Below, piece after piece: positions 6,483 to 60,905 of a stretch of DNA of 64,000 nucleotides (its first letter is position 1; each line of letters begins with the position of its first letter). A program made the position numbers and the translations under genes. Below the pieces are notes generated by a model. It searched no databases, had not been told where the DNA came from, and was given only the letters and a program-made list of their open reading frames with translations. Origin of the DNA: Alteromonadales bacterium alter-6D02 (lineage in GTDB: Bacteria; Pseudomonadota; Gammaproteobacteria; Enterobacterales; Psychrobiaceae); the NCBI GenBank assembly GCA_002835545.1, contig PIZK01000001.1, positions 62,001-126,000 of the forward strand, written 5' to 3'.

Positions 6483-6941
6483 CTAAATAAGATAAGCTAG
6501 CCCGAACGCGAATAAAATAGCGCCTGTCACCTTACTAAACGCTGCCCATGGCAGCGTTTTTTCTAATATAACCCAGAAGGTTAGAATGATGATGGCTGTT
6601 ATGCTCATCACGCCAGTGACAAATAGCGATGACCATTGCTATAACCCTGCGCCCATCAGTAAAGCCCCGGTAAAATATTGGTTATTATTGACCATCATCG
6701 CAAATAACAGTGCAGCATGATGCAACCCCCACTGACACAAAGTGATAGCCGCTGAAAATAACAGGCACATGAATAAATAACCGACAAAAAAATAGTGGGC
6801 AGGGTTATATGTAGGCTTGTCTTTAGGCGATAGTCTACTGATAAATAGCGTGATCGAGGTTGCAGAGGGGAGCATCACACCTATCATCTCATCGTGTCCA
6901 TAAAGTGTGTTAATGAGGAGGAGGCATTTCTTTATCGTCAT
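6483..6941 (-). pseudogene. Decayed DUF2182 predicted metal-binding membrane protein
   Basis: Two in-frame blocks of one family are separated by a stop (TAG at 6639-6641). The first (6642-6941) holds VMLPSATSITLFISRLS, YFFVGYLFMCLLFSAAI, QWGLHHAALLFAMMV and GALLMGAGL, which follow the N-terminal half of DUF2182 proteins. The second (6483-6638) holds SLFVTGVMSI, LTFWVILEKTLPWAA and GAILFAFGLAYL, its C-terminal end. The family's central region with its Cys-containing motif (about 50 residues) is missing between them. Tyr of the conserved GAGLYQ is the stop codon. The apparent start codon at 6939-6941 lies inside a dispersed repeat, so the real N-terminus is also lost. No longer functional. Confidence 0.7.
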
Positions 6942-7033
6942 CCTGAAAGTGTTTTATTCAGGATCTCGTTGTTTGGTTTGGGGGAGTGTTAGCAGTAAAG
7001 TGAAATCCTGGCTAAAAGCCTGCCGGACTGACA
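6934..7033 (+). repeat. Dispersed ~100-bp hairpin repeat (REP/MITE-like), single diverged copy
   Basis: Starts ATCGTCATCCTGAAAG and ends GCCTGCCGGACTGAC. It shares the ends and both small hairpins (TCCTGAA...TTCAGGA; CCGGC-type) of the 110-bp tandem units at 52921-54008; the middle is diverged. It abuts the 5' end of the DUF2182 pseudogene. Confidence 0.75.
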
Positions 7034-51435: not shown

Positions 51436-52725
<1,290 letters not shown>

Positions 52726-52735
52726 TCGTTGATAT

Positions 52736-52855
52736 ATGCGTGATGATGACGAGTGGCTAAAACGCCTGCTGTATCGTAGTATGTTAATGGTTTTTGGAAG
52801 TTTACTGTTTATTATTTTGTATGAAGTGATAATCATTGTTGCCGAAAACACGTAA
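52736..52855 (+). CDS. Possible 39-residue single-span membrane peptide
   Basis: A short ORF 10 bp after serS: charged start (RDDDEWLKRLLYRS) then a clear hydrophobic helix (MVFGSLLFIILYEVIIIVA) and ENT. The composition looks selected rather than random, and it ends right before a good terminator. It lacks a strong ribosome site and may be translated by coupling to serS. Function unknown. Confidence 0.4.
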   Translation: MRDDDEWLKRLLYRSMLMVFGSLLFIILYEVIIIVAENT

Positions 52856-52872: not shown

Positions 52873-52900
52873 AAAAGCCAGCGTTTACGCTGGCTTTTTT
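52873..52900 (+). terminator. Rho-independent terminator of the serS transcript
   Basis: AAAAGCCAGCG/CGCTGGCTTTT stem with four-base loop and six T, before the tandem array. Confidence 0.9.
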
Positions 52901-52920: not shown

Positions 52921-54008
52921 ACCGTCGTTCTGAAAGTGTGTTATTTAGGGGCTCGTTAGTTACTGATATACAATACGAGATTCCGGCTAAAAGCATGCCG
53001 GAACGACACATTGGTGAGGCGCTCTCTTGCATCGTCGTCCTGAAAATGTGTTATTCAGGACCTCGTTAGTTGCTGTTATACAGTACGAGATTCCGGCTAA
53101 AAACCTGCCGGAACGACACATTGGTGAGGCGTTCTCTTGCATCGTCGTCCTGAAAGTGTGTTATTCAGGACCTCGTTAGTTGCTGATATACAGTACGAGA
53201 TTCCGGCTAAAAACCTGCCGGAACGACACATTGGTGGGGCGCTCTCTTGCGTCGTCGTCCTGAAAGTGTGTTATTCAGGATCTCGTTAGTTGCTGATATA
53301 CAATACGAGATTCCGGCTAAAAACCTGCCGGAACGACACATTGGTGGGGCGCTCTTTTGCATCGTCGTCCTGAAAGTGTGTTATTTAGGGGCTCGTTAGT
53401 TGCTGATATACAATACGAGATTCCGGCTAAAAGCATGCCGGAACGACACATTGGTGGGGCGCTCTCTTGCGTCGTCGTCCTGAAAGTGTGTTATTCAGGG
53501 GCTCGTTAGTTGCTGATATACAATACGAGATTCCGGCTAAAAACCTGCCGGAACGACACATTGGTGAGGCGCTCTCTTGCATCGTCGTCCTGAAAATGTG
53601 TTATTCAGGACCTCGTTAGTTGCTGATATACAATACGAGATCCCGGCTAAAAGCATGCCGGAACGACACATTGGTGAGGCGCTCTCTTGCATCGTCGTCC
53701 TGAAAATGTGTTATTCAGGACCTCGTTAGTTGCTGTTATACAGTACGAGATTCCGGCTAAAAACCTGCCGGAACGACACATTGGTGAGGCGTTCTCTTGC
53801 ATCGTCGTCCTGAAAGTGTGTTATTCAGGATCTCGTTAGTTGCTGATATACAATACGAGATTCCGGCTAAAAGCCTGCCGGAACGACACATTGGTGAGGC
53901 GCTCTCTTGCATCGTCGTCCTGAAAATGTGTTATTCAGGATCTCGTTAATTGCTGATATACAGTACGAGATTCCGGCTAAAAGCATGCCGGAACGACACA
54001 TTGGTGAG
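52921..54008 (+). repeat. Tandem array of ten 110-bp repeats, each with two hairpins
   Basis: Units begin at 52921, 53031, 53141, 53251, 53361, 53471, 53581, 53691, 53801 and 53911, an exact 110-bp period; the tenth stops about 12 bp short, 1 bp before the tusE stop codon. Each unit has one hairpin TCCTGAA...TTCAGGA and one TTCCGGC...GCCGGAA, and ends that are roughly inverse (GTCGTCC...GGAACGAC). Units differ at a few bases; units 2 and 8 are identical over 110 bp. Single diverged copies occur at 6934-7033 and (inverted) 60803-60905, so a dispersed REP-like element was amplified here. Not a CRISPR array: there are no unique spacers. Confidence 0.95.
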
Positions 54009-54009
54009 A

Positions 54010-54348
54010 TTAAATACACTTTGCTGGTTTCGGTAACCCAGCAATACGGGTGGCTTGTTTCGCTGGCCCTTTAGGAAAGAGCTTGTAAAGATAACGCGAG
54101 TTGCCTTTTTCTGGCCCAAACTCTTTCGCGACCGCTTTGACGAGCATGCGTACCGCAGGGCTGGTATTAAACTCAAGGTAAAAATTGCGAATAAAGCGCA
54201 CCACTTCCCAATGCTCTTCAGTCATGGTGATATTTTCTAATGATGCTATATGTAGCGCGACTTGTTCATTCCAGTCTTCGAGGTTAAGCAAATAATCATG
54301 CTTATCGACATCAAGGGCTTTGCCTTGAAAAATAATTCCTGTGCTCAT
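54010..54348 (-). CDS. tusE: TusE, sulfur-relay protein (DsrC family)
   Basis: 112 residues. DsrC/TusE fold with [48 protein letters not shown] and [36 protein letters not shown], in parts. The penultimate cysteine (KPAKCI) is the sulfur carrier that passes persulfide to MnmA. Last gene of tusDCBE; its stop codon lies 1 bp from the repeat array. Confidence 0.95.
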
Positions 54349-56562: not shown

Positions 56563-56653
56563 GGAGAGATGGCAGAGTGGTCGAATGCACCGGTCTTGAA
56601 AACCGGCATGGGTTAATAGCCCATCTAGGGTTCAAATCCCTATCTCTCCGCCA
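56563..56653 (+). tRNA. tRNA-Ser(UGA), copy 1
   Basis: 91 nt with encoded CCA. Acceptor GGAGAGA pairs TCTCTCC; anticodon loop CTTGAAA with TGA at 56597-56599; long variable arm ATGGG-TTAATAG-CCCAT; T-loop TTCAAAT. Class II shape proves Ser. Identical in sequence to copy 2 at 59960-60050. Confidence 0.98.
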
Positions 56654-57040
56654 CTAATTAAGAAAAGCCCGCTAACATGAAAATGTTAGCGGGCTTTTTG
56701 CTTTCAGGTTAAAAAAATGCGTTAATAGCGCAGTTAGGGAGATTCAAATTCCTACCTCTGCGCCACTAATTTAGAGAAGCCTGCTAACATGAAAATGTTA
56801 GCGGGCTTTTTGCTTTCAGGTTAAAAAAATGCGTTAATAGCGCAGTTAGGGAGATTCAAATCTCTATCTCTCTGCCACTTATTTAGAAAAGCCCGTGAAC
56901 ATGAAAATGTTAGTGGGCTTTTTGCTTTCAGGTTAAAAAAATGTGTTAATAGCGCAGTTAGGGAGATTCAAATTTCTATCTCTCTGCCACTAATTTAGAA
57001 AAGCCCGTTAACATGAAAGTGTTAACGGGCTTTTGGCTTT
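56654..57040 (+). repeat. Array of three tRNA-Ser 3'-fragments, each alternating with a terminator
   Basis: After the tRNA a terminator (stem AAGCCCGCTAACAT/ATGTTAGCGGGCTT, 56665-56696) is followed by a 47-base degenerate copy of the tRNA variable arm, T-arm and 3' acceptor strand ending CGCCA or TGCCA. The set repeats with a 112-bp step: fragments at 56719-56765, 56831-56877, 56943-56989; terminators near 56665, 56776, 56887 and 57000. Each fragment keeps the GTTAATAG variable loop and TTCAAAT. Confidence 0.9.
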
Positions 57041-57062: not shown

Positions 57063-57100
57063 CATCCGTCGTTCCGGTAGTGTTTTGAGCCGGAATCTCC
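57063..57100 (-). repeat. Half copy of the dispersed hairpin repeat
   Basis: CATCCGTCGTTCCGG...CCGGAATCTCC equals one end plus the CCGG hairpin of the 110-bp/REP-like element in inverted orientation; the other half is missing. Confidence 0.65.
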
Positions 57101-57115
57101 TAACGAAACAAGATA

Positions 57116-57150
57116 AGCTCACTAACATGAAACATGTTAGTGAGATTTTT
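57116..57150. terminator. Terminator-like hairpin between the tRNA array and the HDOD gene
   Basis: Stem CTCACTAACATG/CATGTTAGTGAG with a 3-base loop, followed by five T on the plus strand. It resembles the array terminators (CTAACATGAAA), so it may be a further degenerate unit. Confidence 0.7.
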
Positions 57151-59959: not shown

Positions 59960-60050
59960 GGAGAGATGGCAGAGTGGTCGAATGCACCGGTCTTGAAAAC
60001 CGGCATGGGTTAATAGCCCATCTAGGGTTCAAATCCCTATCTCTCCGCCA
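59960..60050 (+). tRNA. tRNA-Ser(UGA), copy 2
   Basis: 91 nt, identical to copy 1 base for base including the encoded CCA. Anticodon TGA at 59994-59996. Followed by its own terminator/3'-fragment array. Its 5' flank is unlike that of copy 1, so the two are separately promoted. Confidence 0.98.
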
Positions 60051-60740
60051 CTTATTCTGTAAAAAGGCTATCTAATTATTTTAGATAGCCTTTTTCGTTT
60101 CAGTCTAAAAAGATTGGGTTAATAGCTCAGTTAGGGAGATTCAAATCCTTATCTCTCCGCCACTTATTCTGCAAAAAAGGTTATCTAATTATTTAGGTAG
60201 CCTTTTTTCGTTTCAGTCTAAAAAGATTGGGTTAATAGCTCAGTTAGGGAGATTCAAATCCTTATCTCTTCGCCACTTATTCTGCAAAAAAGGTTATCTA
60301 ATTATTTAGGTAGCCTTTTTTCGTTTCAGTCTAAAAAACATTGGGTTAATAGCTTAGTTAGGGAGATTCAAATCCCTATCTCTTCGCCACTAATTTAGAA
60401 AAGCCCGTTAACATGAAAGTGTTGGCGGGCTTTTTGCTGTCAGGTACAAAACATTGGGTTAATAGCTCAGTTAGGGAGATTCAAATCCTTATCTCTCCGC
60501 CACTTATTCAGTAAAAAAGGTTATCTAATTATTTAGGTAGCCTTTTTTCGTTTCAGTCTAAAAAGATTGGGTTAATAGCTCAGTTAGGGAGATTCAAATC
60601 CTTATCTCTCCGCCACTAATTCTGTAAAAAGGCTATCTAATTATTTTAGATAGCCTTTTTTCGTTTCAGTCTAAAAAGATTGGGTTAATAGCTCAGTTAG
60701 GGAGATTCAAATCCTTATCTCTGCGCCACTTATTAAAAGA
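60051..60740 (+). repeat. Array of six tRNA-Ser 3'-fragments alternating with terminators
   Basis: Fragments of 47 bases at 60116-60162, 60229-60275, 60343-60389, 60456-60502, 60569-60615 and 60682-60728, in steps of 113-114 bp. Each starts GGGTTAATAGC and ends CGCCA. Between them lie hairpins with T runs, mostly of the GGCTATCTAATT/TTAGATAGCC or GGTTATCTAATT/TTAGGTAGCC type. The one after the third fragment (60396-60435) is of the CCCGTTAACATGAAA type otherwise found only in array 1, a sign of exchange between the two arrays. Confidence 0.92.
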
Positions 60741-60802: not shown

Positions 60803-60905
60803 CATCCGTCATTCCGGCAGTCTTTTAGCCGGAATCTCGGGTTTGTTACCGATGGTGATTACTCTACGACAAGATCCTGAATAAAATATTTTTAGGACGA
60901 CGATG
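60803..60905 (-). repeat. Inverted single copy of the dispersed hairpin repeat
   Basis: CATCCGTCATTCCGGC... to ...TTAGGACGACGATG, the reverse complement of the element in the 110-bp array, with intact CCGGCAGTCTTTTAGCCGG and TCCTGAATAAAATATTTTTAGGA hairpin parts. Its CATC...GATG ends suggest the true element borders. It sits 20 bp after the barrel-protein stop. Confidence 0.8.

Follow-up and report, generated by a model that had tools for sequence, protein, structure and literature searches.

A ten-unit tandem array between serS and tusE belongs to a genome-wide set of arrays of CGTC-type REP-like heterodimers

The gap between the converging genes serS and tusE is filled by ten tandem copies of a 110-bp unit, and the question is what this unit is, how it was multiplied and whether it serves the two genes. 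The array lies in a stretch of 64,000 nucleotides (the window) of a marine bacterial genome available as a 3.99-Mb draft of 45 contigs; the nearest named relative of its SerS protein, at 86% identity, comes from a MAG labelled Psychrobiaceae, which makes a position near Psychrobium probable. TRF placed the array at 52923-54008 with a period of 110, 9.9 copies, 94% matches and 0% indels, and all ten units could be aligned without a gap. The initial annotation had described a ten-copy array with a fixed joint, with identical units 2 and 8, and with both neighbouring genes ending towards it. The TRF run, the unit alignment and the coordinates (Table 1) bear out each of these points, the joint GAGGCGCTCTCTTGCATC being nearly constant from unit to unit.

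Table 1. Positions in the window of the array, its dimers, the neighbouring genes and the dispersed relatives
Feature	Position	Strand	Remarks
Tandem array	52921..54008	+	ten 110-bp units, each a head-to-head CGTC-tagged REP-like heterodimer plus a 26-bp joint; in each unit hairpin A on the + strand, hairpin B on the - strand
Dimer 1	52924..53007	+	edge unit, most diverged, different 5' flank
Dimer 2	53034..53117	+	identical to dimer 8
Dimer 3	53144..53227	+	
Dimer 4	53254..53337	+	
Dimer 5	53364..53447	+	
Dimer 6	53474..53557	+	
Dimer 7	53584..53667	+	
Dimer 8	53694..53777	+	identical to dimer 2
Dimer 9	53804..53887	+	
Dimer 10	53914..53997	+	edge unit; 3' flank extends into the tusE stop codon
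serS (seryl-tRNA synthetase)	51439..52725	+	converges on the array
tusE (DsrC family)	54010..54348	-	stop codon one base from the array; converges on the array
Hairpin AAAGCCAGCG TTTA CGCTGGCTTT with T run	52874..52900	both strands readable	found by inspection; missed by the terminator scanner
Dispersed single dimer, same family	6937..7032	+	
Dispersed single dimer, same family	60808..60901	-	
Weak, decayed dimer	57068..57146	-	31.5 bits

Hairpin A of the array units consists of the tag CGTC followed by GTCCTGAA, nine bases and TTCAGGAC. After a spacer comes the inverted hairpin B, which reads on its own strand TGTC followed by GTTCCGGC, nine bases and GCCGGAAT, and which has a CGTC tag at most other loci. 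The stem arms are RTCCTGAA/TTCAGGAY for A and RTTCCGGC/GCCGGAAY for B. Since the tags are on the outside of both hairpins, the unit is a head-to-head heterodimer. The unpaired tag at one hairpin end that marks the CGTC superfamily (CGTC, with TGTC/CCTC also admitted) was found in both hairpins, on opposite strands, across the loci and in other genera. The 8-bp stem encloses a loop of about 9 bases here and of 9-11 in most relatives, and the unpaired tail is CTCG here and CTNN or CCAG in relatives.

The presence of two hairpins per unit, already proposed from the letters, was confirmed by folding the unit as DNA (z -4.4) and by the covariation of the arms. Across 30 dimers and their two 8-bp stems, 16 cells were doubly changed where shuffling gave 4.0, and the observed value was not reached in any of 500 shuffles. 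The first pair is A-T, G.T or G-C and the second mostly T-A; on the CGTC strand the first pair is G.T in 61 dimers as compared with A.C in 2. Dimers from other genera of the order have different stems that are still complementary (e.g., ATCCTCGA, ATCCCTGA, ATCCCCGA, ATCCTGCA). To judge from these patterns of substitution, the hairpins look selected as single strands. We also considered a four-way-junction fold of the whole dimer and rejected it: covariation supported the two separate hairpins but not the outer and middle stems of this fold. The ends of the element, given initially as CATC...GATG, were right in part, in that the flanks of different loci do have an inverted repeat in common; it is weak, reads about CCCACACATC, GTC...GAC and GATGTTGGGG in this order, and suggests a length of perhaps about 100 bp for the mobile unit.

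The dimer is abundant in the genome. Exact A hairpins occur 97 times and exact B hairpins 70 times, against 0 and 2 occurrences of the reversed patterns, and a covariance model found at least 80 full dimers. At the 25 loci sampled, 79 of the 84 dimers stand in tandem, forming 20 arrays that range from two to ten units and have individual periods of 86-213 bp. The array at 52921-54008 is the longest resolved example of this genome-wide habit and not a singular satellite. Its description as unusual does not hold in view of these 20 arrays and of the tandem REPIN clusters already published (PMC3116915), while the proposal of a dispersed REP-like element does: the relatives seen at 6.9 and 60.8 kb are real, and a third, weaker one was added (Table 1).

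The dimer loci are crowded on the contigs C25 (49-73 kb) and C44 (91-163 kb), and several contigs of more than 90 kb have no dimer among the matches listed. In a further array (C8:192319-193156, 8.9 copies of 100 bp) every unit has kept hairpin A, while hairpin B has degenerated so far that the search pattern misses it; here it seems that amplification acted on the already decayed form. The window also contains a tandem array after each of two tRNA-Ser(UGA) genes (56563-57040, 3.7 x 112 bp, and 59960-60734, 6.5 x 113 bp), the unit of which is a terminator-like hairpin with a truncated tRNA remnant devoid of the anticodon arm. We take these two arrays to be similar to the repeats after E. coli tyrT.

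Comparison of the dimers indicates how the arrays arose. Dimers of one array share 92.5% identity, those of different arrays 71%. For 62 of 79 dimers the nearest neighbour belongs to their own array, where shuffled labels would give 3.5, and monophyly holds for 11 of the 20 arrays, including the one at 52921-54008. These data indicate that for the most part an array descends from a single founder at its own site, in agreement with the local tandem amplification first suggested. The other nine arrays are not separately monophyletic, four of them being neighbours on C25; either arrays have to some extent shared or exchanged units, or the sequences are too short for resolution. Two details of the initial scenario had to be given up. 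The copies at 6.9 and 60.8 kb, taken as the source, are among the most distant relatives of the array (ranks 66 and 65 of 74, 64-65% identity), and its closest relatives (75-77% identity) are on other contigs. A duplication of blocks of six units finds no support either: the longest exact repeat inside the array is 188 bp, and an offset of six is no better than chance order (permutation p 0.58). Within the array, 14 of 36 informative site pairs failed the four-gamete test, which could partly reflect recurrent mutation, and divergence is highest in the first unit. Both observations would fit unequal exchange.

An array could also be built by repeated transposition of REP dimers into one spot by a RAYT-type transposase instead of by local recombination. 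REP dimers are regarded as mobile (PMC3116915), and in our locus list, compiled by hand from the search results, the loci cluster along contigs, with 20 adjacent pairs less than 15 kb apart against 7.6 expected. However, the units of one array have joint and inner spacer in common, while both vary from array to array, and the search for a RAYT/TnpA-REP transposase, suggested at the outset, gave no link to the dimer. The sole Y1 transposase gene of the genome (C22:50950-51282, minus strand) is flanked by TCAATGGGGTCAGAGTCGTTGA, a repeat of 22 copies (up to 2 mismatches) that is unrelated to the dimer. The dimer model run on sixteen Y1 loci, this one and 15 in other dimer-carrying genomes, gave no clear match (best E 0.017). 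Moreover, 3 of 10 dimer-carrying relatives have no Y1 gene at E 1e-4, and two of them (G154 and G187) are assessed as 100% complete. A RAYT was thus rejected as the mobiliser, as was membership in the RAYT-mobilised REPINs of the GTAG type, where the cognate Y1 gene is flanked by the same REP. Repeated transposition appears highly improbable as the origin of the array. The missing Y1 link agrees with the published lack of a dedicated transposase for CGTC REPs (PMC3733652), and as no mobilising enzyme was identified, the mobility of the dimer is deduced solely from its dispersal. In the whole 4-Mb genome, no copy of TCAATGGGGTCAGAGTCGTTGA is farther than about 14 kb from the Y1 gene, which looks like the strictly local spread of a TIR-type repeat near its own transposase.

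The number of units might have been inflated or collapsed by the assembly. The genome is a draft, the 188-bp exact repeat exceeds common k-mer sizes, and 12 of 80 contig-end 500-mers contain the hairpin of the array. The assembly does break at such arrays, then, and ten is a provisional count; the arrays at the ends of C32 and C45, both with a 117-bp period, may be one array that was split. On the other hand, 9 of the 10 units are distinguishable, which makes a pure assembler duplication unlikely, and similar arrays occur at many sites and in other genera. We regard an assembly artefact as improbable.

A related MAG locus (L077) gives an idea of the site before the array. There, the serS terminator is directly followed by the tusE stop codon, without array; the intergenic sequence is too diverged for an empty-site alignment exact to the base. 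The hairpin on the serS side of our array is likely the serS terminator, and L077 has a comparable hairpin at the same place. Few of the other relatives looked at have kept serS next to tusE. Both loci also have a small ORF after serS (52736-52855, plus strand, MRDDDEWLKRLLYRSMLMVFGSLLFIILYEVIIIVAENT, in the window; MKNDELWFRRLLLRAMFLMFGGLVLIILTDALILIIDNT in L077), the product of which is a probable conserved small membrane protein.

Taken together, we consider it very probable that a non-autonomous CGTC-type REP dimer was multiplied from a local founder by slippage or unequal recombination. As L077 suggests, a dimer would have arrived in the short stretch that separates the serS terminator from the tusE stop codon. 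This one founder would have been multiplied, joint included, by replication slippage or unequal homologous recombination, and exchange would then have partly homogenised the units, as indicated by the incompatible sites and the diverged edge units. Some twenty further loci would have gone through the same steps, and each has a period of its own.

A different explanation is that the units were multiplied for a function, as an RNA or terminator array that blocks read-through between serS and tusE or protects the 3' end of the tusE mRNA. The placement of the loci is in its favor. Fourteen of 25 loci lie between converging genes as compared with 19 of 125 other neighbouring ORF pairs (Fisher p 4e-5), which extends to the family the convergent position first seen at serS-tusE, and none of 25 lies between diverging genes, as compared with 22 of 125 (Fisher p 0.026); the loci come from the same hand-compiled list, the control pairs from the same stretches, and the ORFs were called mechanically. 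The dimer loci also favor sites within tens of bases of stop codons, the hairpins are compensated, and the serS-side hairpin is 1.1 kb away from tusE. Yet a bias of this position is expected from purifying selection alone; insertions in genes and promoters were probably selected against, and a placement bias of the same kind has been published for REPs (PMC3733652). The serS terminator already lies to the left of the array, and the array hairpins, lacking a T run directly after them, do not have the structure of an intrinsic terminator (a G+C-rich stem followed by a T run). The terminator scanner gave only weak 5-pair matches in the array, and Rfam found no family above the gathering score there, with weak sRNA-terminator matches beside it.

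The distribution in relatives also argues against a function. At E 1e-6 the covariance model, which was trained on this genome and undercounts distant relatives, had matches in 13 of 295 genomes of the order, which belong to 5 of 100 genera. Of eight congeners, one has a few matches. At the sensitivity of the model the element is absent from almost all genomes of the order and from most congeners. A DNA search at the level of the unit gave no matches in 57 relatives, because the stems differ. Where the dimer occurs it may again be in tandem, for example with a spacing of 119 bp in G063 and of 154 bp in G187. A functional array is thus in our view unlikely, and the dimer is best read as a neutral or mildly useful element.

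To which class does the dimer belong? The CGTC-tagged REPs were described by Di Nocera et al. 2013 (PMC3733652), and our dimers resemble them in the unpaired CGTC tag at one end, in the 8-bp stem with usually A-T as first and T-A as second pair (in the superfamily, stems measure 8-9 bp and their first two positions are complementary A/T), in the predominance of head-to-head heterodimers without association to a transposase gene, and in the location between converging or unidirectional genes. They differ in the loop, of 9-11 bases instead of the 4-5 typical of the four published families, for which exceptions are noted; perhaps in the tail, CTCG instead of CCA (CCAG occurs in G154); in the clusters, which are the rule here and were called rare; and in the host, a gammaproteobacterial order instead of mainly alphaproteobacteria (PMC3733652). 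Given the loop of about 9 bases, the dimers would form a new family in the CGTC superfamily, distinct from CGTC-1 to -4.

Tandem growth of such elements has a precedent in P. fluorescens SBW25, with 16 tandem REPIN clusters, the largest of four REPINs and over 700 bp (Bertels and Rainey 2011, PMC3116915). As in these clusters, near-identical doublets follow each other head to tail together with flanking DNA, but the array has ten units in 1.1 kb, and the SBW25 REPs are of the RAYT-linked type while the array dimers have no RAYT link. From these comparisons, the kind of structure is known, the array being longer and the family new.

The enterobacterial BIMEs, whose REPs are of the GTAG type and come with a RAYT, differ from the array in these two respects and in sequence, and resemble it in that inverted, unlike REPs alternate. 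Runs of this alternation are sometimes long and lie downstream of genes (outlined in PMC2817692).

If the shared terminator to the left of the array serves tusE, the tusE mRNA would have a 3' UTR with up to 20 hairpins, which may slow 3' decay or end transcription. A more far-reaching idea, which we hold to be rather doubtful, is that the long-loop CGTC heterodimers of marine gammaproteobacteria are mobile palindromes of a class of their own, which need no Y1 transposase to spread and are prone to form tandem arrays behind genes, whose 3' UTRs would become adjustable in length. The number of units given by a draft genome of this group is not to be relied on. A genome so rich in dimers is a place to measure the rate at which REP arrays gain and lose units. 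The mobiliser of the CGTC-tagged REPs was left open at their description (PMC3733652); this group, with at least 80 dimers in one genome, arranged in many arrays particular to their loci, and with relatives that carry dimers but no Y1 transposase, is a place to look for the real one.
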